Assembly (NCBI GenBank): GCA_902578255.1
Contig: CACHCH010000010.1
Coordinates: 1-42,198, forward strand
Length of the DNA stretch: 42,198 nt
Reading direction: 5' to 3'
Origin: an uncultured Pelagibacteraceae bacterium
Lineage (GTDB): Bacteria > Pseudomonadota > Alphaproteobacteria > Pelagibacterales > Pelagibacteraceae
Positions 11,244 through 31,720 of this stretch are shown here, piece by piece. Position 1 is the stretch's first letter, and each line of letters opens with the position of its first letter. Made by a program: the position numbers and the translations under genes. The notes beneath the pieces are model-generated. The model worked only from the letters and a program-made list of their open reading frames with translations, was not told the origin of the DNA and did not search any database.

Positions 11244-11705
11244 ATGAATAATAAAAGAAACTTTATAAAAATTGTAAGTCTGTCATTTTTTTCATTACTT
11301 ATAGCCCCTTACAAATTTGCTTTTTCAGAAATTAAAAAAATTATCAATAAAAATTTAACTAAAAAGCAAAAAGAAATCATGTTTAATGAAGGAACAGAAA
11401 GAGCTTTTACAAGTAAATTACTTAATGAAAAAAGAAAAGGATTTTACCTTTGTGCTAATTGTGGAGCTAAGTTATTTTCATCTGAGGCAAAGTTTGATAG
11501 TGGCACTGGTTGGCCATCTTTTAGTGAGGCACTCCCAGGTGCTTTTAAAACTAAAATAGATTATTCATTTGGTATGAGAAGAATAGAATACCATTGTGCA
11601 AATTGTGGTGCTCATCATGGACATGTTTTTCTTGATGGCCCAACCGCTACTGGAAAAAGATTTTGTAATAATGGTTTGTGCTTATTGTTTGTTCCTGAAA
11701 CTTAA
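11244..11705 (+). CDS. msrB: Peptide methionine-R-sulfoxide reductase, exported form
   Basis: Reduces methionine-R-sulfoxide in proteins. The zinc-site cysteines are present (C70-A-N-C73 and C118-A-N-C121), as are GTGWPSF and the catalytic Cys141 in RFCNNG. The usual motif continues N-S-x-S-L; here it is NGLCLLF, placing an extra Cys146 five residues after the catalytic one, a possible recycling cysteine. Residues 5-28 form a basic-then-hydrophobic N-terminal segment that looks like a signal peptide or anchor, so the protein probably acts in the periplasm. The 3' end overlaps the HAD-like gene by 4 bp on the opposite strand. Its reductant may come through CcdA, by inference. Confidence 0.92.
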   Translation: MNNKRNFIKIVSLSFFSLLIAPYKFAFSEIKKIINKNLTKKQKEIMFNEGTERAFTSKLLNEKRKGFYLCANCGAKLFSSEAKFDSGTGWPSFSEALPGAFKTKIDYSFGMRRIEYHCANCGAHHGHVFLDGPTATGKRFCNNGLCLLFVPET

Positions 11706-12364
11706 GATTTAAATATATTCTTATTTATTTTACTTACTTCTTTAAAAGCACCATTAAACTTTTTAGACGTGTGAAAATTTCCAGGAAAAATTAAACATTT
11801 CAATTTAGCTTTTATTGCAGAATTGAGACTTTCCTGTGTATCCTCTATTGCAATACACTCTTTGGGTTTTAGCCTAAGTTCTTTTAAAGCCAATTTATAT
11901 ATTTCAGCAGATGGTTTAAGTTTTTTAACTAATTTAGAATTACCAATAAAATCAAAATCTTTTTTATTTAAACTATCCCTTAAACAAAAAAAAATTGAAT
12001 TTATATTATTTTTGGAGGTTGAAGAAACTAAAGCTAGTTTGATTTCTTGTTTTTTACAATATTTTATTATTTCCTTAACGCCACTTCTTAATTTAAGTTT
12101 ATTTTTTTTTAAGTAGCTATTAAATATTTTTGTTTTTAATTTGATTATATTTTTGGAATTAACATTGCTTTTAGTTTTTTTTGCATATCTCAATATTCTT
12201 TCTTCACCTCCAGATTTATTGAGTAATTTTTTATAAATTTCTTTTGTCCAATTCCATTTAAGACCAGCAATTTTAAATGCACTATTAAATGATTTTCTTT
12301 GAATTTCAGACGTTTCAACAATGGTTCCAATAGACCCAAATAATAAAGCCTTATATTTTTTCAA
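11702..12364 (-). CDS. HAD-superfamily protein lacking motif I aspartates
   Basis: A 220-aa protein of the CbbY/beta-PGM-like HAD fold. Motif II (LVSSTSKNN), motif III Lys (KKLKPSAEIY) and motif IV (CIAIEDTQES) are readable. Motif I, normally F-D-x-D-G-T, reads FGSIGT at residues 9-14, so both the nucleophile Asp and the acid/base Asp are replaced (Gly10, Ile12). It cannot use the standard phosphoaspartate mechanism, so it is either a non-catalytic protein or works differently. Its ATG overlaps the stop of the upstream ABC permease by 4 bp, tying it to the importer operon of unknown substrate. Confidence 0.85.
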   Translation of the reverse strand: MKKYKALLFGSIGTIVETSEIQRKSFNSAFKIAGLKWNWTKEIYKKLLNKSGGEERILRYAKKTKSNVNSKNIIKLKTKIFNSYLKKNKLKLRSGVKEIIKYCKKQEIKLALVSSTSKNNINSIFFCLRDSLNKKDFDFIGNSKLVKKLKPSAEIYKLALKELRLKPKECIAIEDTQESLNSAIKAKLKCLIFPGNFHTSKKFNGAFKEVSKINKNIFKS

Positions 12365-13242
12365 CCTTTGATAGCTCCAGCTGTTAGACCACTAATAATT
12401 TGCCGTTGAAAAAACATTACTAATATAAAAAGAGGAGCTGTAGCCGATACTACAGATGATACGGCCCACATTAAATTTCCCTCATGTTGGTTAGTTCCCA
12501 AATAACTTTGTATCTTTGGTACCATTGTATGATTTTCTTGATTTAATAGTAATGCAGTCACCGTGAAATCATTATAGGCTAACATTAAACTAAACAAGCC
12601 TGCAGTTATCACCCCTGGCCACATTACTGGCATTATAATGTGTCTGAAAGTTTGAAAATATGAACATCCATCTATTAAAGCACTCTCATCAAGTTCTCTA
12701 GGTACTGTTTTAAAAAAGGAATATAGAAGCCATAGTGTAAATGGTTGATTTATAGCAACCAACACAACAATTGTTGTGGGTAATATTCCCCAAATTTGAA
12801 GCTCAAAAAAGGGAAATAGATAACCAGATACTAAAGTTATGTGTGGCATTGCTCTAAAAATTAAAGCTAAAATTAATAACCAAAACGCATAATTTCTTGT
12901 AGATCTTGATAGAGCATATGCACCTAGTGTTCCTAGGAATAAAGAAATACTAACTACAAAAATAGTAACAATAACAGTATTTTTTGATGCCTTCCAAAAC
13001 TCTCCTTCAGTCCATGCTTGACTATAGGCGTTTGTAGTAAATTTTCCTCCAGTTTCTATTAAAGTATTAAAAGCTGAAATAGCATACCACCAATCTGATC
13101 TAGAAAAGAAATCAGCTCTTACTTTAAATGATCCCCAAAATGTCCAAATAAATGGAAAGCAAGCAATCAAAAGCCAGACAATTATAAAAATTGTATTGAA
13201 AGTTTTTAAACTTGTCGTTTTTTTATCTAATCCATAATCCAT
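12361..13242 (-). CDS. CUT1-type ABC importer permease (MalG/UgpE-like)
   Basis: A 293-aa inner-membrane permease with about six helices. The EAA loop that docks on the ATPase reads DESALIDGCSYFQTFRHIIMP. Architecture and length match the MalG/UgpE class of sugar and polyol importers. It pairs with the permease at 13245 (2-bp gap), the binding protein at 14323 and the ATPase at 19804. The N-terminus carries an extra soluble loop (about residues 38-85) between the first two helices. The substrate is not deducible. The stop overlaps the start of the HAD-like gene. Confidence 0.92.
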   Translation of the reverse strand: MDYGLDKKTTSLKTFNTIFIIVWLLIACFPFIWTFWGSFKVRADFFSRSDWWYAISAFNTLIETGGKFTTNAYSQAWTEGEFWKASKNTVIVTIFVVSISLFLGTLGAYALSRSTRNYAFWLLILALIFRAMPHITLVSGYLFPFFELQIWGILPTTIVVLVAINQPFTLWLLYSFFKTVPRELDESALIDGCSYFQTFRHIIMPVMWPGVITAGLFSLMLAYNDFTVTALLLNQENHTMVPKIQSYLGTNQHEGNLMWAVSSVVSATAPLFILVMFFQRQIISGLTAGAIKG

Positions 13243-13244
13243 AA

Positions 13245-14273
13245 TTATCTTGCTATCCTAAATTCTTTCCAAGTTCTTATCAAAACTGGAGCTAATAAAA
13301 TTGCTATACCAACTATAGTCATAATGGAAGTTGCTGCAGCAGAGCCGAATAATATTACTTCTTCATTAACTAGATTATCATAAATTAACCATGATAAAGA
13401 TTGTGCGCTACCTTCTGCGCTAAATCCAATTATTGGTTCAAAAACTCTGAAATTATCCATTAAAGAGATCAATGCTACAAAAGTAACTACTGGATATATA
13501 TGAGGCAAAACAATGTGTTTAATTCTTTGAAATCTTGATGCACCATCAATAATAGCTGCCTCTACTGGTTCTTGGGGAACCGTTTGAAGAGCGGCATAAA
13601 ATACTACAAATGCAAAAGGGGAGTGATGCCAAATACCATAAATAATTATTGTAATCCAAGTTAATGTTTTTGAGGACTTTAGGGACAAATAAGGATCATT
13701 CATCAAGTTTTGAATATTTGCACCAATTATTCCTTGAGAATCAATCATCCAAAATAATACTAAAGAACCAACTAAAGGTGTTACTATCATGGGTAAAATT
13801 GTGCCAAAAATTAATGGTCCCCTAATTTTTCTGGCAACTGCATTTAAGCTTAGTGCTATTATAAAACCTAACAAAAGTACATTCGGGGTTACAAATAAAC
13901 AATATGTTAAAGTGAATATTAAAGCTTTATAAAAAGGTAGATTGGTTACTTGATCTATAAAAGCACCAAAACTTTCAGTTTCATTCCAAAATTTTTTGAT
14001 TTCCTCAACTGCCAAATGATTTCTGTCAGTATAAGTTCCAAAACCGTTAAATTTTCCTAGAGGCTTTGCTTCTCTAATTTTAGAGGTTTCCTCATTATCA
14101 ACCACAATTGAAACAGTACAACCAAATGGATCACATTTTTTGACTTCTTTTACTATTTGGTCATGCTGTGCATAAAATGATTGTATGCCAGTTGATATTA
14201 TTGGTAGCCCTATAAACAGGATCATTGCTAAGCCTGTCGGTAAAAAAAACCAAAAAAATGTTTTATTGGGCAT
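13245..14273 (-). CDS. CUT1-type ABC importer permease (MalF/UgpA-like)
   Basis: A 342-aa permease of the MalF/UgpA class. The EAA loop is PVEAAIIDGASRFQRIKHIVLP. Between the first and second helices, at about residues 32-110, lies a periplasmic loop with two close cysteines (KKCDPFGCTVS), likely disulfide bonded, longer than in typical UgpA but shorter than the MalF P2 domain. It might contact the binding protein. A strong stem-loop at 14286-14310 separates it from the upstream binding-protein gene. It is transcribed with the MalG-like partner 2 bp downstream. Confidence 0.92.
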   Translation of the reverse strand: MPNKTFFWFFLPTGLAMILFIGLPIISTGIQSFYAQHDQIVKEVKKCDPFGCTVSIVVDNEETSKIREAKPLGKFNGFGTYTDRNHLAVEEIKKFWNETESFGAFIDQVTNLPFYKALIFTLTYCLFVTPNVLLLGFIIALSLNAVARKIRGPLIFGTILPMIVTPLVGSLVLFWMIDSQGIIGANIQNLMNDPYLSLKSSKTLTWITIIIYGIWHHSPFAFVVFYAALQTVPQEPVEAAIIDGASRFQRIKHIVLPHIYPVVTFVALISLMDNFRVFEPIIGFSAEGSAQSLSWLIYDNLVNEEVILFGSAAATSIMTIVGIAILLAPVLIRTWKEFRIAR

Positions 14274-14285
14274 CTAAATGTTAAT

Positions 14286-14310
14286 TAAGTGGGGAAAAAT
14301 TCCCCACTTA
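14286..14310 (-). terminator. Intercistronic stem-loop after binding-protein gene
   Basis: An 11-bp perfect stem (14286-14296 with 14300-14310, core AAGTGGGG/CCCCACTT) closes a 3-nt loop. It lies between the binding-protein stop and the permease start. On the minus strand no T-run follows, so it is more likely an mRNA-stabilising or attenuating hairpin, raising binding protein over permease, than a full terminator. Confidence 0.65.
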
Positions 14311-14322
14311 TATTTTTAGATT

Positions 14323-15543
14323 TTATAGAAAGCCTTGTTCTTTAGCTTTACTGATATAAGCAGCCTCAACGTCTTTCAATGCTTGTTCAGCTGACTCTTT
14401 ACCTTGTAAAAACTCAACAATCTCACTTCCTAATGCACCATGCATTAATCCCATTTGTGGCAACATTGGGTATGGTTTTGCTTTCATCTTTACAGCTTCG
14501 ATTACACCAATAGATTTTGGTCCTGGAACAAATCCCTCTACTAACCAAACAGCTTGATCAGCAGCGTCAGCTACCATTTTCTTATTTGATGCTGCATGTG
14601 CTAAAGCTCTAAATGTAGCGTCTGCATCTGCATCTGATCTATTTTTCGCTAGAGTAAAACCATCCCACCATAGTGTAGCTGCTGGAATATTTCCTCCACC
14701 AACAGTGGCAGGTCCAGCTAGTTTTGTTGCTTTAGTAATATTAGGATCACCTTCATCATCTAAAAGAGTTCCTGATCTAGATGCCCATAATGTCATTAAT
14801 GCAACATTTCCAGACTCCCATTCTACTTTAATTGCTTCACTATCATGAGTTAAGTAATCAGGATTACTTAATTCAGATAATTTTTTTAACATATTTAAAG
14901 TTGCAACACCTTTAGCGTTATTAATGTTTGGTTCTGCACTTCCAGATTTAAAGAATTCACCACCATGTCCGATAAACATGTTTACAAATTCTTCTGCTAA
15001 GTTCCAGCCAGCTTTATAAGCAGCTGCATATGGATGTTGCATTTTTCCTGAAGCTCTAATTTTTTCAGAAGCTGCAACAACTTCCTCATATGTTTTTGGC
15101 ACTGCTATACCCATATCTTTTAAAATATCTTCTCTATAATACAAATGCTGAGTATTGGCCATAAATGCAACAGCCATTACCTTTCCATCAATTGTAATTA
15201 ATTGAGAGTCTTGAATTCCTTTTCCATATTTTTTAACAAGATCATCTAATGGTCTAATCAAATCTTGGTTCATCAAAGGAACAATCGAACTGTTTGCAGC
15301 AATTCTAGCTGAAAATTCAGATGGATTTGCGGTTAATGCGGGCACTGCGATTTTATTATGCTCAGATGAGTGAGTCACTTTAAACTCAGCATTTCCTTTA
15401 CATTGTTTAGAAGTTTCAACGAAAGTTCTTAATGCAGGAAAATCATTAGCTAAAATATTTATTGAGCCACTTTTAATGTTACAATCTGCAAATGCAGATG
15501 TTCCAAAAAATAGAAACAATAAAGTAACAAGTATTTTTCTCAT
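14323..15543 (-). CDS. CUT1-type extracellular solute-binding protein
   Basis: A 406-aa periplasmic binding protein of the family 1 (MalE/UgpB-type) fold. A Sec signal peptide ends near residue 19 (TSAFA). Later landmarks include VMAVAFMANTQHLYYREDILKDMG, typical of CUT1 binding proteins, and WESGNVALMTLWASRSG. Mature Cys21 and a second Cys near residue 48 could bond. It captures the unknown substrate and delivers it to the permeases at 13245 and 12361. Aromatic residues around LWWDGFTLAK may line the site. The 85-bp upstream spacer holds a TATAAT box on the minus strand and the gene has a GA-rich Shine-Dalgarno, so it may have its own promoter. Confidence 0.92.
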   Translation of the reverse strand: MRKILVTLLFLFFGTSAFADCNIKSGSINILANDFPALRTFVETSKQCKGNAEFKVTHSSEHNKIAVPALTANPSEFSARIAANSSIVPLMNQDLIRPLDDLVKKYGKGIQDSQLITIDGKVMAVAFMANTQHLYYREDILKDMGIAVPKTYEEVVAASEKIRASGKMQHPYAAAYKAGWNLAEEFVNMFIGHGGEFFKSGSAEPNINNAKGVATLNMLKKLSELSNPDYLTHDSEAIKVEWESGNVALMTLWASRSGTLLDDEGDPNITKATKLAGPATVGGGNIPAATLWWDGFTLAKNRSDADADATFRALAHAASNKKMVADAADQAVWLVEGFVPGPKSIGVIEAVKMKAKPYPMLPQMGLMHGALGSEIVEFLQGKESAEQALKDVEAAYISKAKEQGFL

Positions 15544-15628
15544 ATATTCTCTCTCTTTTTTTTGTTTGTTAAATTATAATTTAAGTAAGAAAACTATACT
15601 CACTCCTTATAGGTAATAAAAGTCATAA

Positions 15629-16756
15629 TTAAATCACTTTTGACGCAAGTTCTGAACCCTTTACCAAAGACTCAAGTTTTTTGTAAACTATATTTTCATC
15701 AACATTTCCAAAGCCAGCAAAAGTACTAAATCCACAGTCTGTTCCTGCTAATAATTGTTCTGCATCAATGACTTTAGAAAAAGTTAAAATTCTGTTCTTT
15801 ACAACCTCGGGATGTTCTACAAAATTAGTCGTTGAATCTATTACACCTGGGGCAATTATTTTATCATTTGGAACTTTTAAATTTTCAAAAATTTTCCACT
15901 CATGAGAATGTCTCGGATTAGATGATTCAATTAAGTAGGTTTGAACATTAGCTTTTAATGCAATTGGCATAATCTTTTCTAAAGGAATATCGTGTAAATG
16001 AGGACCTTCATAATTTCCCCAACAGATATGAAGTCTTATGTTAGAACTATCTATATTCTTTATAGCGTTGTTAAGACACTCTATTTGTTTTTCTGCTCTA
16101 ATCAAAAATTCTTTTTCATCCAAATCTTTAAAAGTCATGTGTCTTGCTAGAGCTAAATCAGGACAATCCAACTGTAATTTTATTCCATTTGACGTAATTT
16201 CTTCGTATTCCTCTCTCATTAAATTTGATAAATTTTCTAAATAGTCATCATCGTTTTTATAAAATTTATTTGGTAAAAAAGCAGATATAACACCAGGCGA
16301 CGCAGCATTCATAAAACCAGTTTTATGAGTATTTTTATTTAATGCTTTTTTAAAATTACTAATATCTTTAGTTAAAGATGATTTATCTTTTATTTTGAGC
16401 TCACCAGTACAACATGGTCTTGTATATTTAGGTGTACCGCCGGTTCTTGCAATCCTTTCCTTATAAGATGGAAAGTCATCTAAATCCTTAGGCGCTTTCC
16501 TCTCACTTTCGCCAGAAAAACCGTCTAATCTATCTTTAACATAAGTTGCATAGCTGATCTTTGACATTTCACCGTCACTTACAATATCTATACCTACATT
16601 AATTTGTTTTTTAACTACATCATTTACATCTCTTCTAACTATTTGATCAAATTTATTTAAGTCAATTTTTTGATTTTGGTCTTTCTTAAATAAAAGGTCT
16701 GATAATTCATGTGATCTAGGCAAACTTCCTACATGAGTTGTTTTAATTTTACCCAT
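15629..16756 (-). CDS. MetE-core (cobalamin-independent methionine synthase C-terminal domain-like) methyltransferase
   Basis: A 375-aa protein equivalent to the catalytic C-terminal half of MetE, without the N-terminal domain. The zinc ligands align as His243 and Cys245 (HICWGN), Glu277 (LIESSN) and Cys341 (GTDCGFST), so it should activate a thiol and transfer a methyl or alkyl group. THVGSLPR at residues 7-14 is the usual start of the barrel. Relatives include short methionine synthases and epoxyalkane:coenzyme M transferase-like enzymes; the acceptor here is unknown. Its place between a double-NTF2 gene (3 bp upstream) and the ABC importer suggests it demethylates or dealkylates the imported compound (inference). 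Confidence 0.88.
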   Translation of the reverse strand: MGKIKTTHVGSLPRSHELSDLLFKKDQNQKIDLNKFDQIVRRDVNDVVKKQINVGIDIVSDGEMSKISYATYVKDRLDGFSGESERKAPKDLDDFPSYKERIARTGGTPKYTRPCCTGELKIKDKSSLTKDISNFKKALNKNTHKTGFMNAASPGVISAFLPNKFYKNDDDYLENLSNLMREEYEEITSNGIKLQLDCPDLALARHMTFKDLDEKEFLIRAEKQIECLNNAIKNIDSSNIRLHICWGNYEGPHLHDIPLEKIMPIALKANVQTYLIESSNPRHSHEWKIFENLKVPNDKIIAPGVIDSTTNFVEHPEVVKNRILTFSKVIDAEQLLAGTDCGFSTFAGFGNVDENIVYKKLESLVKGSELASKVI

Positions 16757-16759
16757 AAA

Positions 16760-17722
16760 TCAATTCATTAAAATTTGTTTCCATATAGCCACTTCATCAA
16801 ACAAAACCCATTCTCTTATAACTTTCCCATCACTTATCTCAGCATGATTAATCCCCATTATAAAAATATTTTTATTTGTTGCTTCTCCAAAGTCAGACGT
16901 TTTATTTGAGTGATTCGCATCCAAAAACCATCTTACGGAGGCCTTAGGATTTTTACCTTGCTCCTCTAAATATCCAATATGTTCAATTGAAAATTTAAAA
17001 TTACTAAAAGCTCCCTTTAGTGATTGCCAAAATTTCTCTATATCTTCTCTTCCATGGCCAATTTTATTTCCTGGCCAGTAAATACTTGCTGCCCTTGCGT
17101 AATCAGAAAAATTATAATCATTGGTAAAAATTGTATTGAGTATATTCGAATATTTTACTCCAACTGAGTCTTTGGGTGCAGGATTTGGTCTATATTCTGA
17201 TTTCATGTCAGATTTTAAAGTAAATATTTTTTTAGAATTTTCTAAACCACCTTCGTTTTCAATTATTTTTTGAGCAAATTCTTTAGGAGTAAAACCTATT
17301 TGTCTTACCATAGCTCCTTGATCTCTTACAATCCATTCGTCATAAACTTGATTATTTTTACACGCACAATCAGCAATAACTCTATAATAAATATTTTTAC
17401 CAGATGGTTTTCCATATAAACCATTTCCAAGGTGAGTACCTTTACTTAAAATTCTATGAGATGAATGATAACCATCCTCTGCGTCTTTGTTCCAAATAAC
17501 ATCTTCACCTAGTAATTGTCTATTTGGAAATTCTCTTAAAGTTGCAAATGTTGCATCTATAACTGGCTTATTACCATAGGTTACTCCAAAGGGAGACCTC
17601 ACTGGAATATTTTCAGTATAATAATTAGCAATAGAATTAACGTCTTTACCTTCCCAAATTTGTTTTGTAATTTTAAGAATATAATCAGGAAAACTTTTAT
17701 ATTTTTTATCAAAACCTTTCAT
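16760..17722 (-). CDS. Tandem NTF2/SnoaL-like double-domain protein (minus arm)
   Basis: A 320-aa soluble protein made of two NTF2-like units, about residues 10-150 and 190-318. Unit 1 closes with DEWIVRDQGAMVRQIGF and unit 2 with VIREWVLFDEVAIWKQI, both matching the last strand-helix of SnoaL-like ester cyclases. GREDIEKFWQSLKGAF is the characteristic helix in unit 2. The fold binds hydrophobic or lactone-like small molecules, but no active site can be assigned. It overlaps the bicupin gene by one base and precedes the MetE-core gene by 3 bp. A distant paralogue is transcribed divergently at 18716. Confidence 0.82.
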   Translation of the reverse strand: MKGFDKKYKSFPDYILKITKQIWEGKDVNSIANYYTENIPVRSPFGVTYGNKPVIDATFATLREFPNRQLLGEDVIWNKDAEDGYHSSHRILSKGTHLGNGLYGKPSGKNIYYRVIADCACKNNQVYDEWIVRDQGAMVRQIGFTPKEFAQKIIENEGGLENSKKIFTLKSDMKSEYRPNPAPKDSVGVKYSNILNTIFTNDYNFSDYARAASIYWPGNKIGHGREDIEKFWQSLKGAFSNFKFSIEHIGYLEEQGKNPKASVRWFLDANHSNKTSDFGEATNKNIFIMGINHAEISDGKVIREWVLFDEVAIWKQILMN

Positions 17723-18666
17723 TAGATTTGAGTTACGCAGTTTAATAAACTTTCCTCTTTACTGTCTATACTAATATTTACATTTGAATTTATTGGAATT
17801 GAAATCGTGTCTTTAGAATTAAGATTTACTTCAAAATCTTCAATTTGTATATGCCATGAACCTATTTGTGAAAACATCACTGTTGGCTTTGAGAATTTTA
17901 AATTATTTATTTTACCCTTTTTTGACTTTAAAATTGATAAATTAAATCCAGTATTTTGATTAATAATAGGAGAGAAAGTTTTATTTTGGAAATGGTTACC
18001 AAGTATTTGGGTAATTTTAAAATTTTCATTTAATTTTACTTCATGATTAGTTCTTTTAGAAAACTTGCAAATAAATTTTTCAATCTCGCTTAAGTTGTAA
18101 TTATCAAATTTTTTAATTTCTTCTGAAGATATTGGATTAAGAAGTGTTTTATCTTTAGGAATATTATTTTTGGACAAATCAATTAAAGTGTTATCATTTA
18201 AAAGTGCCATACCAGTTGTTTTTGCTTTTTCTAATACGCTTGGTAGCCAAGTAATTATTCCAGGATCATCTCCGCCAAGCACTACAAACATGGTTCCTTC
18301 CTGATCACCTGCATTTTCAAATCCTCTAAACATATTTGTAGGCATTGAAATAATATCTCCAGCACCTAAAATGGTTTCACACTTACCCTCATTACCCCAA
18401 TAAAATCTCCATTTTCCAGAAAAAATAATAAAAACTTCAGCAGTTGTATGACTGTGTAAGCCAGAGCCATTTCTTGGCATCGCAGAAACAGCACCTAAAT
18501 TAAAACTATGTGGTCTAGAAATTTTAACTGATTGGCTTATATCTTCTGCCACTCCTGGACCTACAATTGAATAGTTTTTTCTATCTCTATGTCCCTCAAG
18601 CTTCCCTTCTACAAATGGAAGTTTACTTGGGACAAGATCTGAAAATTTTGCTAATTTTAAATTCAT
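17722..18666 (-). CDS. Bicupin protein
   Basis: A 314-aa protein with two cupin barrels. In the first, motif 1 reads GLHSHTTAEVFIIFSG (His71, His73, Glu77), a full metal-binding set on that side, while motif 2 reads PTNMFRGFEN, with Arg114 where the fourth ligand His normally lies. The second barrel (about residues 210-310) is degenerate, with a weak LNSKDTISIPINSNV match. Enzyme or sensor roles are both possible. It is the first gene of the minus arm, starting 49 bp from the divergent plus arm, and overlaps the next gene by one base. Substrate unknown. Confidence 0.82.
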   Translation of the reverse strand: MNLKLAKFSDLVPSKLPFVEGKLEGHRDRKNYSIVGPGVAEDISQSVKISRPHSFNLGAVSAMPRNGSGLHSHTTAEVFIIFSGKWRFYWGNEGKCETILGAGDIISMPTNMFRGFENAGDQEGTMFVVLGGDDPGIITWLPSVLEKAKTTGMALLNDNTLIDLSKNNIPKDKTLLNPISSEEIKKFDNYNLSEIEKFICKFSKRTNHEVKLNENFKITQILGNHFQNKTFSPIINQNTGFNLSILKSKKGKINNLKFSKPTVMFSQIGSWHIQIEDFEVNLNSKDTISIPINSNVNISIDSKEESLLNCVTQI

Positions 18667-18715
18667 ATATTTATTTATTTATAAATGTGATAAAGAAATA
18701 TTCCAATAAAAATAT
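18667..18715. promoter_or_regulatory. Bidirectional promoter region of the ABC/NTF2 cluster
   Basis: Only 49 bp separate the bicupin start (minus) and the double-NTF2 start (plus). The stretch is almost pure A+T and includes ATTTATTTATTTATAAAT. Both transcripts of the cluster must start here or within the opposite gene, so co-regulation is likely. No clear hexamer pair or operator can be fixed by eye, and neither gene shows a good Shine-Dalgarno. Confidence 0.4.
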
Positions 18716-19804
18716 ATGCTAATAGAACAATTTGATACAGGATTAAAATCAAAGAAAGATATAAAGGATATTAATCTTTCCCCAAAAGAAAATCACACAA
18801 ACAAACTCTTTGTAAGAAATGAACTTAAAAAAATTTTTTATAGTAAAAATAAAAATCTAGAAAAAAATTTACAAAAACTCTTTGATAAAGATTTAAAAGT
18901 AAATTGTTTTCATCCAATTAATGAATTTGATAGTTTAGATAATTTAAAAAGCAAATTTTATGAACCATTGTTTAAAGCATTTCCAGATTTAGAAAGAAGA
19001 GAATTAATGGTTGTTGGTGGTGCTTTTAGGGATAAGATTCAAGTAGGATCAATTTCAACACTATCTGGAATATTCAAAAATCCTTGGCTTGGAGTTAATC
19101 CAAATTTTAAAATGATAAACTTAAGATGCTGTGAAATTCATGAAATAAAAAATGGAAAAATAATTGAAAGCCATATTCTTATTGATACCCTAGATTTTAT
19201 TCGACAATTGGGGATTTGGCCCATTAATAAATCTAGAGGATCTGAAGGTTCATGGCTTAGTCCATATAATACGGATGGTTTAGATTTTTATGAGGAAGAT
19301 TTTAATGTTTCAAAAAATAATTTAAGACAAGCCATGGAGATGAATAGAAGTTTAAATTATAAGCCAGAATTAGAAAATTTAAGTGATCAAGAATTAAAAG
19401 ATAGACTTTTAAGTCATCCACAAAAAGAATTTTGGCACAAAGATATGATTTGGTATGGGCCATGTGGGATTGGAACATCAAGAAGTTTAGAAGGATTTAT
19501 AGATATGCATCAATTACCTTTTAGAAAGTCTTTTAGTCAGAGGGATTACTTTAAATTAGGCCATTACTGTGAAATAGGAGATGGAAAATTTTCACTTTGC
19601 GCTGGGTGGCACAGCTTAGATGCAAATTATGGAAAAAATGATTGGCTTGGTTATACCGCTGAAAACCAAAATATTACAATGAGAGTCATGGATTTCTACC
19701 ATCATGATGAGGGAAAAATAAGAGAGAATTGGGTCCCTATAGACATCGCCCATATATTAACCCAAATTGGGGTTGATATTTTTGAATTAATTAAAAAATT
19801 ATAA
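18716..19804 (+). CDS. Tandem NTF2/SnoaL-like double-domain protein (plus arm)
   Basis: A 362-aa protein with two NTF2-like units, about residues 55-170 and 225-358. The unit ends HILIDTLDFIRQLGIWP and REDYF-like elements mirror the minus-arm paralogue (IVRDQGAMVRQIGF), and the second ends RENWVPIDIAHILTQIG. The second unit has a Cys-Gly motif WYGPCGIGTSR and many aromatic and His residues (HSLDANYGK, YHHDEGK) that could build a ligand pocket. No signal peptide, so cytosolic. The stop overlaps the ATPase start by one base, linking it firmly to transport of the unknown substrate. Confidence 0.82.
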   Translation: MLIEQFDTGLKSKKDIKDINLSPKENHTNKLFVRNELKKIFYSKNKNLEKNLQKLFDKDLKVNCFHPINEFDSLDNLKSKFYEPLFKAFPDLERRELMVVGGAFRDKIQVGSISTLSGIFKNPWLGVNPNFKMINLRCCEIHEIKNGKIIESHILIDTLDFIRQLGIWPINKSRGSEGSWLSPYNTDGLDFYEEDFNVSKNNLRQAMEMNRSLNYKPELENLSDQELKDRLLSHPQKEFWHKDMIWYGPCGIGTSRSLEGFIDMHQLPFRKSFSQRDYFKLGHYCEIGDGKFSLCAGWHSLDANYGKNDWLGYTAENQNITMRVMDFYHHDEGKIRENWVPIDIAHILTQIGVDIFELIKKL

Positions 19805-20859
19805 TGTCAAATATAAAATTTACCAACATTCATAAATCCTTTGGAGCAAATAAAATAATAAATAATTTTAATCTTCAGGGAAAAGAAGATGAATTTTTAG
19901 TTTTGGTTGGTCCATCGGGTTGTGGAAAGTCTACCTTGTTAAGAATGATTGCTGGATTGGAACAGATAGATGAAGGTGAAATACATATTAATGATCAATT
20001 AGTTAATGAATTACATCCCTCAAAAAGAGAAACTGCAATGGTTTTTCAATCATATGCGTTGTATCCACATATGAATGTCTTCGAAAACATGTCTTTTGGT
20101 CTTAAAATAGAAAAGCGACCAAAGGAAGAAATTGAACAAAAAGTAATGCAGGCTGCAAAAATTTTAAAAATTGAGGAACTGTTAGAGAGAAGACCAAAAC
20201 AGCTTTCTGGTGGTCAACGACAAAGAGTTGCAATCGGAAGAGCTATAACAAGAAATCCTAAAATTTTTTTATTCGATGAACCATTATCTAACCTTGACGC
20301 TGCACTTAGAGCTGAAATGAGAGTTGAAATCTCTAAATTACATAATCAAATCAAAACAAATATGATTTATGTAACACACGACCAAGTTGAGGCAATGACA
20401 CTAGCTGATAGAATAGTTATATTAAATCATGGCAATATTGAACAGGTAGGTACACCTGATGAAATCTACAGTGATCCTGCAAATATTTTTGTTGCTCAAT
20501 TTATTGGAACTCCAAAAATGAATATCCTTAAAATAAGTAGTGATCATATAATCTCAAATAATGAAATTAATTTTTTAGGTAATAAAGTTAAATTAGATAA
20601 ATTAAATTTTTCTAAAAAAGATTATTACCTAGGCATAAGACCCGAACATTTTAATGTATCAGAAAATAATGAATATAATTTCAATCCGAAAGTAGATTTA
20701 ATTGAAAATTTAGGTAATGAAAAAATTGCTTATATTAAAATAGATCAATATGAAATAAGTACTAAAATATCTAGCAAACTCAATATAGAGAATACAATTG
20801 GGTTTAATTCCAAAGATATTTTTGTTTTTGATGAAACTGGAAAAAGAATTAAATCTTAA
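19804..20859 (+). CDS. ABC importer ATPase, MalK/UgpC type
   Basis: A 351-aa ATPase that powers the CUT1 importer. Walker A GPSGCGKST (36-44), Q-loop VFQSYALYPHMNVFENM, signature LSGGQRQ (134-140), Walker B FLFDEPLSNLD (155-165) and switch His192 are all intact. The C-terminal TOBE region, about residues 235-351, is present as in MalK/UgpC. It lies on the opposite strand from the permeases and binding protein but within the same divergent cluster; no other CUT1 ATPase is in the window, so pairing is strongly inferred. The 3' end overlaps the HisD-family gene by 4 bp. Confidence 0.92.
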   Translation: MSNIKFTNIHKSFGANKIINNFNLQGKEDEFLVLVGPSGCGKSTLLRMIAGLEQIDEGEIHINDQLVNELHPSKRETAMVFQSYALYPHMNVFENMSFGLKIEKRPKEEIEQKVMQAAKILKIEELLERRPKQLSGGQRQRVAIGRAITRNPKIFLFDEPLSNLDAALRAEMRVEISKLHNQIKTNMIYVTHDQVEAMTLADRIVILNHGNIEQVGTPDEIYSDPANIFVAQFIGTPKMNILKISSDHIISNNEINFLGNKVKLDKLNFSKKDYYLGIRPEHFNVSENNEYNFNPKVDLIENLGNEKIAYIKIDQYEISTKISSKLNIENTIGFNSKDIFVFDETGKRIKS

Positions 20860-22143
20860 TTTTGAAAGCCATATTTTCTTAATCTAGCATCACCAGTTCT
20901 TGCATGAGCCTCCATACCTTCGTATCTTGATATTCTTGCACAAGCTGCCCCCACAGTTTTTGTAGATTCTTTTGACATTCTTTGAAAACTTAGAGTTTTT
21001 ATAAATTTACCAACAAATAATCCTCCAGTATATCTACCCGCACCTTTCGTTGGCAAAATATGGTTAGTCCCTGAACATTTATCACCGTAAGCAACTGTTG
21101 TTTCTTCACCAATAAATAGCGATCCGTAATTCTTTAATCTTTTGTGATACCAATCAAGATTTTGGGTTTGTACTTCCAAATGTTCAGGCGCATATTCGTC
21201 ACTAATAGTAGCAATTTCCTCATCAGTGTCACATAAAATAACTTCACCATAATCTCTCCATGCTGCACCAGCGTTTTCTCTTGGTAAATCTGGAAGTTCG
21301 GCGATTAATTCTGGAACTCGTTTAATAACATAATCTGCAATTCTTTTACTTTTAGTATAAAGCCATGCTGGTGAGTTATATCCGTGTTCAGCTTGACCAA
21401 CTAAATCAACTGCAACAAGTTCTTCGTCAGCTTTATCATCAGCTATTACTGCTATCTCAGTTGGTCCTGCAAATAAATCAATTCCAACCTTTCCAAATAA
21501 AATTCTTTTTGCTTCTGCTACAAATTGATTTCCTGGTCCAACTAACATGTCTGCAGGTTCGTTACCAAATAATCCGTTAGTCATTGCTGCAATAGCTTGT
21601 ACACCTCCAAGGTTTAATATTGAATCTGCACCACAAAGATCAGCAGTATAAACAATAGAAGGGTGAACTCCTACACCTGGTTTTGGTGAGCTAGCTACAA
21701 TTATGTTTTTTACTCCAGCTACTTTAGCAGTTGTAACACTCATTACGGCTGACGCGATATGAGCATATCTACCAGCTGGCACATAACAACCTGCAGTGTT
21801 AACTGGTATTAATTTTTGGCCAGCATATAAACCATCTGATAATTCTACTTCAAAGTCTTGACCATAATTCTTTAATTGGGCCTCAGCAAATTTTCTTACT
21901 CTTTCATGAGAAAACTGAATGTCATCTTTTGTTTTTTGATCTAAATTTTTTTTAATTTCCTCAATTTTTTCTTTTGAAACAATTACATCTCCTTCATATT
22001 TATCAAACTTTTTTTGAGAGTGCTTTGCAACCTTCTTCTTTAGTTTTTTCTATATCTTTGAGAATATTTTCAACAATTTCCCTAGTCTTAGTATCATCTG
22101 TTGAAGATGTTTTTGGAGATTTTTTTAAATATGTTATTGCCAT
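20856..22143 (-). pseudogene. HisD-family dehydrogenase (HpsN-like), split by a 1-nt frameshift
   Basis: The family oxidises an alcohol to an acid with NAD and zinc. The reading frame starts at ATG 22143 and encodes an N-terminus through KEEGCKALSKK, then breaks; the rest continues in another frame from KFDKYEGDV to the stop at 20856. Removing one base from the T7 run at 22009-22015 (A7 on the coding strand) restores 428 aa, a normal HisD length. Zinc and catalytic residues are kept (QAEHG, PEHLE, GDKCSGTNHILPT, EAHA). The RYTGGLFVGKF segment is unlike true histidine-biosynthesis HisD and resembles HpsN, the sulfopropanediol dehydrogenase. Sequencing error, true mutation or slippage are all possible. 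It lies 60 bp downstream of the Pta-family gene. Confidence 0.78.
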
Positions 22144-22203
22144 TATATTTTTCTAAATAAATTATTTACTTAAATGAATTTAATAAAAATATCAATGAAT
22201 CAA

Positions 22204-23115
22204 TTAGTCAAGAGCAACTACTGCTGCAGCAATAGAAGCCAATCTTGCTGGAGCTTCATCAGATCTACTTGTAATTACCACTGGAACTTTGCCACCAATC
22301 ACAACACCCGCAGCACAAGCACCCATAAAATATATCATCATTTTTACTAAAGCGTTTCCTGCTTCAACACTAGGAACTAATAACACATCTGCTTCTCCTG
22401 CTACTGAATTTTTTATACCTTTTATACTTGCTGATTTTTTTGAAATACTATTATCAAAAGCTAGTGGTCCAAACACATCTGCATTTAAATTTTCTTTTTC
22501 TGCCAATTTTGTGAGTTCTGCTGCCTCTAATGAAGTAGGCACACTCTCAATTACTTCTTCTGTTGCTGATAATATAGATACTTTTGGTCGTGAAATACCA
22601 ATTCTGTGTGAGAAGTCTATGACGTTTTTAAGAATATGCATTTTTGTTTTAATATTAGGCAATACATTTAAGGCACCATCAGTAATAATTAATGGTGCAT
22701 CTTCTTTTTCAATAGTCATGTGCCATATATGACTTAATCGAGTTTTACCCATCAAATTATATTCACGCTTTAGTACTTCTTTCATTAAAATGTCAGTATG
22801 AATATGACCTTTTACAATTATCCTCACTTTATCTTCACTTGCTAGTTTAGCTGCTATAGGGGCTGTATTGTTTTCTACAGGTTCATCAATAATTTCATAT
22901 TTAGAAATATCCCATTTCAAATCTTCAGCACATTTTTGAATTTCTTTTTTATCTCCAATAAAAATTGGCTCTATTAAATTCTCTTTAACTGCATCTTGAA
23001 CAGATAGCATTGGCAAGGGCATTCCTGCATTTACAACTGCTGCTTTAACACCTTTTTTTTTATGCGCCACATCTAGCAGGCTGTTTGGGCAGACAATTTC
23101 TTTATTAGAAAGCAT
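22204..23115 (-). CDS. pta: Phosphate acetyl/butyryltransferase family enzyme
   Basis: A 303-aa enzyme of the PTA_PTB family that interconverts acyl phosphate and acyl-CoA. Family landmarks are IVKGHIHTDILMKEVL, ITDGALNVLPN, KVSILSATEEV and a C-terminal DVLLVPSVEAGNALVKMM with GVVIGGKVPVVITSRSD. In sulfonate degraders such an enzyme converts acetyl phosphate from Xsc into acetyl-CoA; that role fits this neighbourhood but Xsc is not in view. It is also similar to Ptb, so the acyl group is not certain. It is transcribed toward the HisD-family gene and divergently from the BASS symporter across 137 bp. Confidence 0.88.
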   Translation of the reverse strand: MLSNKEIVCPNSLLDVAHKKKGVKAAVVNAGMPLPMLSVQDAVKENLIEPIFIGDKKEIQKCAEDLKWDISKYEIIDEPVENNTAPIAAKLASEDKVRIIVKGHIHTDILMKEVLKREYNLMGKTRLSHIWHMTIEKEDAPLIITDGALNVLPNIKTKMHILKNVIDFSHRIGISRPKVSILSATEEVIESVPTSLEAAELTKLAEKENLNADVFGPLAFDNSISKKSASIKGIKNSVAGEADVLLVPSVEAGNALVKMMIYFMGACAAGVVIGGKVPVVITSRSDEAPARLASIAAAVVALD

Positions 23116-23252
23116 TGGTAATGTTTATTATTAATATATAATTAAAAGTATATAGGCAATTGTTCCTAATTTTACTAACTAAATTTTTCTATAAACATTC
23201 TAATGTATATTTATTTTATTAACCTTTCTCATAGTGCTATGATATTTGTGCT

Positions 23253-24098
23253 ATGGAAATAGTAACAACAATTGCACCAATAGTTTTAGCCCTAATCATG
23301 CTAGGATTGGGTCTTGGTCTTTCAATTAAAGATTTCACAAGAATATTAAAAACCCCGAGGGATTTTATTGTAGGTTTTTTTTCTCAATTAATTTTGTTGC
23401 CAATTGTAGCTTTAATCATTGCCCTAAGTCTCGATCTTCCCTCTGCTATAGCTGTTGGTCTAATGATTATTGCTGCTGCACCGGGTGGTGTTACTTCAAA
23501 TGTTTTAACAAAATTTGCTAATGGAGATGTAGCTTTATCTATTTCTTTAACTGCAGTGACCAGTTTAATTTGTATTATTACAATTCCAATAATTGTAATC
23601 AGTTCTGCTGATATATTGGGTGTTACTATTGCAAAAGAAATCTCAGTAATTGGAATAGCTTTGAAAATGGCTTTAGTGGTTACAGTCCCTGTAATAATTG
23701 GAATGATTATAAGAGGTTTTGCTGAAAATTTTATTTTATCTAAAATTTATTTAATTAATAAATTAACAGGATGGTTATTTGTAATCGTATTTATTGCAAT
23801 ATGGATTGAAGAAAAAGATAATATTTTAACTTATCTTGCTCAGGCGGGTTTAGCGGTATTAATTTTAAATGTTGCGATGATGGTATTGGCATACTTTATT
23901 GCTAAAAAGTTTGTATCAGGGGTAGCACAACAAAAATGTATTGCATTAGAGTGTGGTCTACAGAATGGAACTTTAGCAGTGTTTGTTGCAACATTAATAT
24001 TTGATGAGGTAGCTTATATGGTGCCAACAGGAGCCTATGCACTGCTAATGTATATAACTGGATTTATTTTTATTTATATCTTAAGAAAAAATAATTAA
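23253..24098 (+). CDS. BASS-family (bile acid:Na+ symporter type) transporter
   Basis: A 281-aa inner-membrane protein with about nine or ten helices. The opening MLGLGLGLSIKDFTRILKTPRDFIVGFFSQ and the later AAAPGGVTSNVLTKFANGDVALS (the Pro-Gly crossover and sodium-site region) mark the SBF/BASS family, as does ECGLQNGTLAVFVA. Members move organic acids with Na+, including pyruvate and sulfonated compounds in other organisms; the cargo here is open. Located between the pta-like gene and a regulator, it may be a second uptake or efflux path for the sulfonate region (inference). The 3' end abuts the regulator gene with no gap. Confidence 0.88.
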   Translation: MEIVTTIAPIVLALIMLGLGLGLSIKDFTRILKTPRDFIVGFFSQLILLPIVALIIALSLDLPSAIAVGLMIIAAAPGGVTSNVLTKFANGDVALSISLTAVTSLICIITIPIIVISSADILGVTIAKEISVIGIALKMALVVTVPVIIGMIIRGFAENFILSKIYLINKLTGWLFVIVFIAIWIEEKDNILTYLAQAGLAVLILNVAMMVLAYFIAKKFVSGVAQQKCIALECGLQNGTLAVFVATLIFDEVAYMVPTGAYALLMYITGFIFIYILRKNN

Positions 24099-25091
24099 TT
24101 ATCTCAAGTAACTAGGAATAAAATCATCATCTTCATCTTTACTCGAGTCTATAATTTTAATTTGATTAAATACTTTATAAATAAAACTACTTAAGCTTTT
24201 AATATTTGCATCTTGTAATTCAGAACTTCTTTTTAATACTGTTCCTTGAATATTAATAAAAAGCAGTTTTCTTTCATTAATAGTTAGGTAATTATTATCG
24301 ATTAAATATTTTAATTTTCTAACAACCGTTGGTCTTGGAATTCCTGTGATGTCAGACAAAGACATTGCATTCATACCTCTTTCATCTGAACCCATAACTT
24401 TTTTTTGATATGTTTTTAAGTTTAGGTCCTTTACTTTGAAGCTCTTATTTTCAGATGCATTAAGCATTACCAAAATTCCAATACACATAGTTTCCAGATC
24501 CTTTACTTCTTTTCTCCACCTGTTTGTATAAATAAATATAAATTTATAAAACTGATACCAGCAAAAAGAAAAATTTTCTTTCATAGAGTATGAAATCTCA
24601 TCAACAGTAAAAGCCTTTTCATTTTTTAATAATTTATTAAATTCAAATAACAAAGAACTCATATCTTTTAAGGTGTCTTTAGCTTGGGTAGCAACAAGTG
24701 TGCTCCTATTAACAAACATTTTTTTTCCAGTTTTTTTAATTACACCTTCTTTTTCTAATTCTAAGATTTTCCTTCTCACACTTTCTTTTGGTATTTCTAG
24801 ATCTTTTGAAATGTCGCTTAAATTTATCTTCTCAATTTCTATTGATCTATCTTTGTAAAAAGTATCATAATTTACAACCAACCCGTTTCTTCTAAAAACA
24901 ATCAAATCTTTATTAATTAGGTAAATAATTATTATATATTTATCTATATCTTTATGAACATTGTATGCTCGTATTAACCAATTGCTGATCAAGAAATAGT
25001 AAGCTGGAGCTAATTTGCTAAAATTATTACTAATAACCTTGAAAATTTCTTTTTCGTCAATTTGAGCCGTAACGCTAGGTACTACTGCCAT
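24099..25091 (-). CDS. DNA-binding regulator with two winged-helix segments
   Basis: A 330-aa protein with two separate helix-turn-helix regions: INLSDISKDLEIPKESVRRK, about residues 89-117, and MSLSDITGIPRPTVVRKL, about 243-270, each followed by a wing-like strand (KKMFVNRS and ERKLLFIN). The middle, about 140-210, is helical with FCWYQFYKFIFIYTNRW, perhaps a dimer or ligand domain. I recognise no named family. The start is placed at the ATG at 25091, because GGAG lies 6 bp before it; an in-frame GTG 18 bp upstream overlaps this site. Gene context suggests control of the neighbouring transport and sulfonate genes, which is inference. Confidence 0.78.
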   Translation of the reverse strand: MAVVPSVTAQIDEKEIFKVISNNFSKLAPAYYFLISNWLIRAYNVHKDIDKYIIIIYLINKDLIVFRRNGLVVNYDTFYKDRSIEIEKINLSDISKDLEIPKESVRRKILELEKEGVIKKTGKKMFVNRSTLVATQAKDTLKDMSSLLFEFNKLLKNEKAFTVDEISYSMKENFSFCWYQFYKFIFIYTNRWRKEVKDLETMCIGILVMLNASENKSFKVKDLNLKTYQKKVMGSDERGMNAMSLSDITGIPRPTVVRKLKYLIDNNYLTINERKLLFINIQGTVLKRSSELQDANIKSLSSFIYKVFNQIKIIDSSKDEDDDFIPSYLR

Positions 25092-25193
25092 TGTTATCTC
25101 CTGACCCACTCTGAACTATTATGTAATGAATAGCAACCCAAATTGGACTCAAGGCATATTTCAAATTTTATTACCACATGGTTTAATACATTA

Positions 25194-25391
25194 ATGAATA
25201 ATGAAGGCTTAAATAGAACATCTCACGTTGTTGAAGACCCTACTCAAGAAAATGAAGCTCCTCTTAGAGTGAACGTGGATGTTCTTAAGCAAAGACTAAT
25301 TGAACAAAAAAGAAAAGATAAAGTAAAAAGAACAATTATTTTGTCTACATTATTAGTATCTCTGGGTGCTTTAACTGTATTAACTTATTAA
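25194..25391 (+). CDS. Single-pass membrane mini-protein, paralogue of the one at 37453
   Basis: A 65-aa protein: a polar N-terminus, then APLRVNVDVLKQRLIEQKRK, basic residues, and one C-terminal membrane helix (about residues 43-64). The topology is that of a tail-anchored protein with the bulk in the cytosol. The VNV-x-L-x-x-R-L pattern followed by a Lys/Arg cluster and a terminal helix recurs in the protein at 37453, so they are likely paralogues. The start is set at ATG 25194; an in-frame TTG at 25143 would add 17 residues without a better ribosome site. The 3' end overlaps the LDH2-family gene by 12 bp. Function unknown. Confidence 0.62.
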   Translation: MNNEGLNRTSHVVEDPTQENEAPLRVNVDVLKQRLIEQKRKDKVKRTIILSTLLVSLGALTVLTY

Positions 25392-26384: not shown

Positions 26385-26385
26385 T

Positions 26386-29108: not shown

Positions 29109-29133
29109 TGCGTCCTTATATTAGAAGTCTTTT

Positions 29134-29170
29134 AAAAAAAATAGGCACTAATGTTTAAATCAGTGCCTAT
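29134..29170 (-). terminator. Attenuator/terminator hairpin between tauA and tauB
   Basis: On the minus strand AATAGGCACT-type arms (29141-29149 paired with 29162-29170, 9 bp including GGCAC/GTGCC) enclose a 12-nt loop and are followed directly by a run of 7-8 T (29134-29140). This is the form of an intrinsic terminator and would give partial read-through into tauB. No T-run follows on the plus strand, so it acts on minus-strand transcripts. Confidence 0.75.
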
Positions 29171-29194
29171 TTAAAAAGTTTTAAACCTTTAAAA

Positions 29195-30136: not shown

Positions 30137-30236
30137 TTATTCCCCTATGTTTAATTAATTAAATTAGACATATTTAAATTCAATTTTATATAGAAGTAAA
30201 ACACTTTATATCGGGATCCAGTATTGCATAGAAATC

Positions 30237-30274
30237 AATTGTACAATTTAAAGTTGTATAATAATGTTGTCCAA
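30237..30274. promoter_or_regulatory. Three tandem TTGTnnAA boxes between tauA and tpa
   Basis: The perfect 12-bp palindrome AATTGTACAATT (30237-30248) contains TTGTACAA. Two further copies follow: TTGTATAA at 30254-30261 and TTGTCCAA at 30267-30274, spaced 15 and 13 bp start to start. Direct-repeat boxes with a palindromic core suit a dimeric regulator, such as a MocR-type TauR, acting on both divergent genes. The link to TauR is inference; no tauR gene is in the window. Confidence 0.45.
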
Positions 30275-30347
30275 TATAGGTCAAAATAAATGTAGTAAAC
30301 AAAACATTTTAGTCTACATATTTTGTTAAAACTAAAATTTAAAAAAT

Positions 30348-31694: not shown

Positions 31695-31720
31695 TTAATC
31701 TAAGTTAAATAAGAAAACCC

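Follow-up and report, generated by a model that had tools for sequence, protein, structure and literature searches.

Gene content and layout of the cluster

We analyzed a divergent cluster of nine genes at positions 11702-20859 of a 42,198-nucleotide stretch of DNA from an uncultured Pelagibacteraceae bacterium (contig CACHCH010000010.1 of GenBank assembly GCA_902578255.1). We refer to this whole stretch, a 42-kb contig, as the window. The genome that contains it belongs to the SAR11 group (Pelagibacteraceae) and comprises 1,009,246 bases in 31 contigs, with an estimated completeness of 82%. The cluster encodes an ATP-binding cassette (ABC) importer of the carbohydrate uptake transporter 1 (CUT1) type together with a core methionine-synthase-like methyltransferase (MetE-core), two double NTF2/SnoaL-like proteins (NTF2a and NTF2b), a bicupin and a HAD-family protein (Table 1).

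An earlier reading of the sequence alone (the original prediction) had named these nine genes, by family and with the span of the cluster, as a candidate catabolic system. All nine were present as open frames and belonged to the families named, as determined from the list of open reading frames and scans with family models. The spacer between the divergent genes measures 49 bp, as had been stated. The description of most neighbors as overlapping by 1-4 bp or separated by a few bases was also accurate: there are overlaps of 4 bp (HAD gene and permease), 1 bp (NTF2a and bicupin) and 1 bp (NTF2b and MalK), and gaps of 2 bp (between the permeases) and 3 bp (MetE-core and NTF2a). The exceptions, and the only wider gaps, lie around the gene for the binding protein, 49 bp to the permease and 85 bp to MetE-core. 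There were no matches to phage families for the three proteins scanned.

Table 1. Coordinates, strands and family matches of the features in the divergent cluster.
Feature	Position	Strand	Evidence
HAD-family phosphatase (beta-phosphoglucomutase-like)	11702..12364	-	HAD_2 84.9 bits; beta-phosphoglucomutase subfamily model 77.8 bits, cut-off 153 not reached
CUT1 permease (MalG/UgpE-like)	12361..13242	-	BPD_transp_1 66.5 bits; 65% identity to Ruegeria cluster permease
CUT1 permease (UgpA/MalF-like)	13245..14273	-	BPD_transp_1 54.1 bits; 55% identity to Ruegeria counterpart
Periplasmic solute-binding protein	14323..15543	-	SBP_bac_1 59.6 bits; 50% identity to Ruegeria counterpart
MetE-core (core methionine-synthase-like methyltransferase)	15629..16756	-	Meth_synt_2 65.5 bits; 375 aa
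Double NTF2/SnoaL-like protein NTF2a	16760..17722	-	SnoaL 71.5 bits, two stretches; 44% identity to Ruegeria 'ester cyclase' EC1
Bicupin	17722..18666	-	Cupin_2 37.3 bits
Divergent intergenic spacer, 49 bp	18667..18715	.	Between bicupin and NTF2b genes
Double NTF2/SnoaL-like protein NTF2b	18716..19804	+	SnoaL 71.2 bits, two stretches; 30% identity to Ruegeria ester cyclases EC2/EC5
MalK/UgpC-type importer ATPase	19804..20859	+	UgpC subfamily model 467 bits, cut-off 432 exceeded

Properties of the encoded proteins

In the MetE-core protein, the positions that bind zinc and homocysteine in methionine synthase are intact. H243, C245, E277 and C341 (the zinc set) align with H647, C649, E671 and C732 of canonical MetE, and S11, E63 and D197 (the homocysteine set) with S439, E490 and D605; the alignment partner was a full-length MetE from the same bacterial family (L170). 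We take these positions to have the roles that they have in the MetE proteins of E. coli and Thermotoga. All seven are identical in the eight family members compared, and are among the at least 97% invariant positions of 31 aligned proteins. The folate tryptophan is absent from the alignment, as is the N-terminal folate domain, Meth_synt_2 being the sole domain of the 375-aa protein. Curated methionine-synthase models were not reached (best score 114.9 bits, cut-off 406), and neither a MesX (DUF1852) nor a corrinoid domain was found among the ten window proteins scanned. With the zinc and homocysteine residues kept, the assignment as a MetE-core made in the original prediction stands.

Pfam matches likewise supported the predicted SnoaL/NTF2 pairs and the bicupin; both NTF2 proteins exceeded the SnoaL cut-off of 28.4 bits. 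No solved structure was close to NTF2b (best E 0.048). In the N-terminal cupin of the bicupin, H71, H73 and E77 are kept and are invariant in 37 aligned proteins. A structure model of the bicupin, built from 38 sequences (predicted local distance difference test score, pLDDT, 68.8), had quercetin dioxygenases as its top Foldseek matches, at a template modeling (TM) score of ~0.5; salicylate dioxygenase was also among the matches at TM ~0.5. The model points to a bicupin fold and no more.

The family matches support the predicted assignment of the importer to the CUT1 type. An SBP_bac_1 binding protein and two BPD permeases, all above their Pfam cut-offs, are encoded together with a UgpC/MalK ATPase. 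The C-terminal OB domain typical of MalK scored below its cut-off in the ATPase (OB_MalK, 22.4 bits; cut-off 27). The binding protein had weak sequence matches to sugar-binding proteins, including SmoF, and its residues W180, W253, W292, W293, W333, E185 and D294 are invariant in 13 aligned proteins.

Conservation within SAR11

A scan of species-level genomes with the window MetE-core gave 198 relatives (247 candidate stretches), of which the best 80 served as our SAR11 set. All 80 loci are from genomes titled Pelagibacteraceae or Candidatus Pelagibacter, and the closest relatives of the window MetE-core among these best 80 of 198 are from uncultured Pelagibacteraceae. With matches required to reach 50% identity and 95% length, the 80 loci contained the binding protein in 75, NTF2a in 74, the bicupin in 71, NTF2b in 69, the two permeases in 77 and 73, the HAD protein in 69 and MalK in 46. 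MetE-core was found in 79, a count that is biased because MetE itself was the query. Many of the missing genes correspond to contig ends. There was no MalK match beside NTF2b in L044-L049, L051 and most of L064-L081 (except L068, L070 and L076).

The arrangement of the genes was constant. The bicupin and NTF2b genes diverge in every one of the 69 loci where both are present, and the spacer between them measures 38-51 bp; the bicupin and NTF2a genes overlapped by 1 base in 71 of 71 scorable loci; and NTF2a and MetE were 0-5 bp apart in 73 of 73. Because the pair, the overlap and the spacing are all kept across the scorable loci, the layout reflects more than chance. Of the 297 genomes of the family, 30 had a strong MetE match (E below 1e-90); all 30 belong to the genus of the window, and 29 are among the 127 high-quality genomes. 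Matches in the other 26 matching family genomes were weaker, several of them within frames of ~760 aa, as of full-length MetE.

Related clusters outside SAR11

Searches of plasmid proteins revealed the same families together on plasmids of Ruegeria, Octadecabacter, Paracoccus, Marinovum, Rhizobium and Ensifer. The proteins of the Ruegeria conchae cluster include the counterparts listed in Table 1 and are 52% (MetE), 43% (ATPase) and 33% (bicupin) identical to those of the window. The Marinovum algicola cluster likewise contains MetE, which is missing from that of Paracoccus alcaliphilus. NTF2a had matches in 32 of 385 genomes of the class, 29 of them strong, and the bicupin in 22 of 299 genomes of the phylum, 15 of them strong, with four of these outside the class; neighborhoods were read for a minority of the bicupin matches.

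We compared 35 loci, consisting of 27 stretches around NTF2a matches and eight plasmid loci, all selected for holding a query gene. Cluster genes were called by BLAST homology over 60 bits, so that gene starts are approximate. Both NTF2a-type and cupin genes were present in 32 loci (the exceptions were L085, L143 and L145), on one strand and within 250 bp of each other in 30 of the 32. These 32 clusters also contained a HisD-like dehydrogenase (30), another NTF2 protein (28), permeases (27), MetE (25), a LacI regulator (25), a binding protein (25), the ATPase (22), a short-chain dehydrogenase/reductase (SDR; 22), a hydrolase (21) and RraA (18). The gene set is therefore conserved in SAR11 and far beyond, and the possibility raised with the original prediction, that it would be conserved nowhere else, is refuted.

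A tree of 77 MetE rows placed 29 of the 30 rows labelled as cluster members in one clade with support of 98/93; the exception was L126. L144, which had been labelled 'other' beforehand although it is among the 32 clusters, fell outside this clade, and its genes are 28-58% alike.

The closest loci outside SAR11 (L120-L122) have a MetE 65-67% identical to that of the window, a similar divergent layout and, directly after NTF2b, a HisD 73-74% identical to the Ruegeria type. Given this layout and the position of HisD, the oxidative part of the pathway was probably lost in Pelagibacter. L120 also encodes a 52% identical HAD protein, after the SDR in the same cluster. Among the proteins of the Ruegeria cluster are RraA, a PcaD-like hydrolase and an amidohydrolase that resembles fuconolactonase (123 bits against a cut-off of 400); lactonase-like proteins such as the latter two are found in the larger relatives and not in the SAR11 operon.

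Several more distant arrangements were seen. In the archaeon Halobellus limi (L085, 8760-15153), MetE-core comes after five ester cyclase genes, four long and one short; an ABC importer and an aldehyde dehydrogenase lie upstream, and both cupin and HisD are missing. In Klebsiella, Pantoea and Deinococcus, distant cupins share their locus with HisD, SDR, an alpha/beta hydrolase and a gene of the aldolase/citrate-lyase family; in Novosphingobium the neighbors are an ester cyclase and an amidase, and in Thioclava, Vibrio and Ensifer they are sugar-acid genes (otnK and partners). The HisD-SDR-hydrolase-aldolase-cupin combination, with major facilitator superfamily (MFS) or ABC genes nearby (L147, L148, L165 and L167, from Klebsiella, Pantoea, Deinococcus and Novosphingobium), is apparently another undescribed catabolic module. 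The two aldolases scanned from these modules (Pantoea and Novosphingobium) are HpaI/GarL-like, below the cut-off. Because the transporter varies (CUT1, tripartite ATP-independent periplasmic or MFS), the catabolic module can presumably be fed by several uptake systems. We considered an IolD-type ring hydrolase in the Thalassospira and Priestia variants and dropped it, because the thiamine pyrophosphate enzyme there, at 306-307 bits, falls short of the IolD cut-off (715).

Relatives of the window MetE-core also occur in sphingomonads, at 44-46% to the window protein and 53-54% to that of Ruegeria. In L155, L175 and L176, a small NTF2 gene and then an IclR gene come after the MetE gene. Within ~10 kb, all three loci also hold MetF and a DesA/LigM-type (GcvT-like) gene, and two of them hold PurU. 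The one demethylase scanned scored 839.9 against the curated DesA cut-off of 800. A hydrolase of the sphingomonad loci is akin to that of the Ruegeria cluster (32-34%, ~107 bits). A fourth such locus (L258), without a match to the NTF2 panel, was found among the further MetE loci described below. This context provides the best, though indirect, support for a methylated, ring-shaped substrate.

A proposed catabolic pathway and its alternatives

We propose that the cluster is an importer-coupled catabolic operon, in which a methylated, ring-shaped, sugar- or cyclitol-like compound is taken up by the CUT1 system and its methyl group is passed to homocysteine, with Pelagibacter holding a short version of the pathway. 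We consider this proposal about evenly balanced between right and wrong. What the analysis shows are the gene families, the conserved layout, the intact MetE residues and the shared clade; every reaction is inferred, and so are the identity of the substrate and the presence of a methyl group on it. The proposal is also favored by the larger homologous clusters, by the sphingomonad MetE context with its related hydrolase, by the quercetin dioxygenases as nearest fold matches of the bicupin, and by the deformylases LdpA and PcfL as a chemical precedent. The importer would take up a small compound carrying a methyl group bound to O (N or S being less likely). The MetE-core would produce methionine by methylating homocysteine, with either the substrate itself or an intermediate generated by the NTF2 proteins as the methyl donor. 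The two double-NTF2 proteins could carry out dehydration, tautomerization or deformylation, causing the methyl group to leave or the ring to become aromatic or open. The bicupin may work on the demethylated ring, and the HAD enzyme may take off a phosphate. Rhodobacterales and Rhizobiales would add a HisD-like four-electron dehydrogenase for a CH2OH group, and in the larger clusters the SDR would oxidize ring alcohols, the PcaD-like hydrolase would hydrolyze the ring-opened product, and the RraA aldolase would split the product to central metabolites. Pelagibacter would keep only the core of uptake, demethylation and ring processing. The original interpretation is partly supported: the importer type, the other gene families and a conserved neighborhood hold, whereas import of a methylated or lactone-type compound followed by dealkylation and ring processing is a prediction.

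Several observations weigh against this proposal. The MetE family is broad, with matches in 119 of 385 genomes of the class at E<=0.001. We hand-picked 40 further MetE-family loci from the genome list, mostly from its upper part and excluding loci already in the set, and these showed many contexts, mostly without NTF2. None of the 40 matched the NTF2 proteins of our panel, and we rejected the notion of MetE and NTF2 as a universal pair; L247 is the cluster itself (no NTF2a match in the 10 kb read), and L255 and L258 have a SnoaL-looking gene, as judged by eye. The bicupin lacks one of the usual ligands of a 3-His-1-Glu metal site, R114 replacing the last His at what we take, from the motif, to be the fourth metal position. 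Seed globulins and oxalate decarboxylases are close behind the quercetinases among its fold matches, and the model is of moderate quality. The structure model of the binding protein has a pLDDT of 35 and leaves the ligand class unconstrained. In addition, seven of the 32 otherwise similar clusters are without MetE, although L123 and L132 are short stretches and some absences may be edges.

The absence of MetE from these seven clusters also fits the main rival, an ordinary non-phosphorylative pathway for a sugar or sugar acid without methyl transfer. Here, oxidation by SDR and HisD would be followed by lactone opening, dehydration and retro-aldol cleavage to pyruvate, with the MetE-like protein an accessory or repurposed TIM barrel. 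The lactonase-like and RraA proteins of the Ruegeria cluster, the HpaI/GarL-like aldolases of the Pantoea and Novosphingobium variants (below cut-off), the sugar-acid genes beside related cupins, and the LacI regulator and CUT1 importer, a pairing typical of sugars, are all consistent with such a route. However, the zinc and homocysteine residues, which a repurposed barrel would not need, are kept; the oxidation and aldolase genes of the relatives are absent from the window operon; and MetE is present in nearly all SAR11 loci, within the bias of that count. We regard the sugar-acid route as rather unlikely, while giving it an appreciable chance.

It is also conceivable that SAR11 uses the MetE-core as an alternative methionine synthase, the imported compound being merely its methyl donor and serving for methionine and not for carbon. 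The window genome has one MetE-family match and no match to PF02574 (the homocysteine S-methyltransferase family, BhmT-type), and the window operon has no downstream oxidoreductases. However, completeness of this genome is only 82%, MetE-like matches in the ~760-aa frames noted above occur in some other genera of the family, and the Rhodobacterales clusters hold catabolic downstream enzymes. A PF02574 protein was found in 29 of the 29 high-quality carriers of the strong MetE match, compared with 64 of 98 non-carriers (93 of the 127 high-quality genomes overall; lists compared by eye). Because all 29 carriers also hold PF02574, replacement by MetE-core is not supported, and we rejected MetE-core as the sole methionine synthase of methionine-poor SAR11. 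We judge an operon devoted to methionine synthesis to be unlikely. The co-occurrence with PF02574, which leaves SAR11 carriers with a possible second route, counts against the catabolic proposal as well, as does the reported failure of a core-MetE homologue from Phaeobacter, which may lie outside this clade, to rescue methionine auxotrophy (PMC12478193).

Within the proposed methyl-removing pathway, one specific substrate would be a mycosporine/gadusol-type sunscreen. Compounds of this type are methoxy-cyclohexenones with a tertiary CH2OH carbinol, and LigK-type aldolases cleave 4-carboxy-4-hydroxy-2-oxoadipate. The MetE-core would move the enol-ether methyl group to homocysteine, the HisD-like enzyme of the relatives would turn CH2OH into COOH, the bicupin or a hydrolase would form 4-carboxy-4-hydroxy-2-oxoadipate by ring opening between the dione carbons, and RraA would cleave this product to pyruvate and oxaloacetate. 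We consider this identification doubtful and offer it as speculation. Our literature searches found no genes for the step of phytoplankton-sunscreen turnover; if the identification is correct, SAR11 and roseobacters are consumers of phytoplankton sunscreens.

The neighboring sulfonate genes

A HisD gene at 20856-21782 meets the ATPase gene head-on and begins a block of sulfonate genes (20856-32839). The block encodes, besides the HisD, Pta-like, bile-acid-symporter-like, helix-turn-helix, sulfolactate-dehydrogenase-like and TauABC-like ABC proteins, together with the omega-aminotransferase AptA and alanine dehydrogenase. The last two were over their cut-offs, and the sulfolactate-dehydrogenase-like and TauABC-like genes were below the equivalog cut-offs. 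In many SAR11 loci (from L007-L043 and related ones), HisD and MalK are separated by a second set of permease genes, which share the strand of MalK and are 27-30% identical to those of the cluster.

The best matches of the window HisD were structures of HpsN (435 bits to 8v35 over 303 aa), and it has a GRYAH motif. The last residue of this motif, His126 in Cupriavidus HpsN, recognizes the sulfonate (PMC11382572). Because its best match is HpsN and the motif is present, the window HisD fits the sulfonate block, and we rejected it as a member of the operon. The motif was readable in 28 of the 30 HisD-bearing cluster loci (L132 and L144 fell outside the search pattern); the dehydrogenases of these relatives have GKFPM/GKYPL-type motifs, and the sulfonate-recognizing His is absent in 28 of 28. 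To judge from this motif, the cluster dehydrogenase of the relatives most likely acts on another substrate.

These results bear on whether the operon itself is part of the adjoining block for dihydroxypropanesulfonate or taurine. The HpsN-type gene at its edge, the Pta, sulfolactate-dehydrogenase-like and TauABC-like genes that come next, and the recurrence of the sulfonate block beside the operon in many SAR11 loci would agree with such a role. The idea is weakened by the motif test, by the transporter in between at many SAR11 loci and by the Rhodobacterales clusters that were read, inside which no sulfonate genes were annotated. We regard it as highly unlikely.

The 5' part of the window HpsN-type gene (about 22000-22150) is in a different frame from the rest, and for this reason the gene looks frameshifted or mis-assembled. 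Among the HpsN-like neighbors of the SAR11 loci (L002-L081), 33 had a readable motif, GRYNN in 18 and GRYAH in 15; GRYNN possibly represents a substrate change within a sulfonate enzyme. In Octadecabacter, a TauD/TfdA-family gene and an Ldh-family gene form part of a separate operon near the cluster. Elsewhere in the window (34950-37397), an 815-aa protein has a GcvT half and matched trimethylamine N-oxide demethylase and sarcosine oxidase models only below the cut-off; it is possibly another demethylase.

Significance and comparison with known systems

SAR11 are among the most abundant bacteria of the ocean. For methionine, they are reported to rely on exogenous methionine, dimethylsulfoniopropionate or presumably glycine betaine (PMC12478193). 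An operon that joins a dedicated importer to an intact core-MetE would give them one more route to methionine. The occurrence of the same core in Rhodobacterales and Rhizobiales would mark an undescribed turnover route for a dissolved compound that is probably common, and the substrate can be tested directly through the conserved binding protein and through plasmid-bearing relatives such as Ruegeria conchae and Marinovum algicola. No account of these genes as a set turned up in the literature that we searched, in agreement with the original prediction, which knew of no such pathway. Each part is of a kind already known; their combination and the dedicated MetE clade are apparently undescribed in the literature found.

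The importer resembles the CUT1 systems MalEFGK, UgpABCE and SmoEFGH in having an SBP_bac_1 protein, two separate permeases and a UgpC-subfamily ATPase, and differs from them in that the window binding protein and permeases are below every curated equivalog cut-off. The cluster dehydrogenase of Ruegeria is nearer to HpsN than to HisD (385 vs 237 bits); unlike HpsN, the cluster dehydrogenases of the relatives are without the His126 motif, and the window operon has no dehydrogenase of the cluster type.

The core methionine synthases MesA-MesD (PMC7857596) likewise consist of the catalytic barrel only, with the HCEC zinc set and the homocysteine residues. In contrast to them, the window MetE-core is below the curated cut-off, has no corrinoid or MesX (DUF1852) domain among the proteins scanned with it, and is linked to an importer, NTF2 proteins and a bicupin.

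A precedent for the chemistry comes from LdpA and PcfL, NTF2-family deformylases that remove formaldehyde in the catabolism of methoxyaromatic dimers (PMC12997858). In them, the NTF2 superfamily serves to break down methoxylated ring compounds, formaldehyde being lost; the likeness to the cluster proteins is at the level of the superfamily alone, a precedent for chemistry and not for kinship.

Finally, the syringate and vanillate loci (DesA/LigM) have the same MetE family beside an NTF2 gene and a related alpha/beta hydrolase, and their LigK and LigI families parallel the RraA and amidohydrolase of the larger clusters. They differ in that their NTF2 proteins have no match to NTF2a or NTF2b at E 0.01, and in that no DesA/LigM-type demethylase, LigAB or folate genes are annotated in the CUT1 clusters read.

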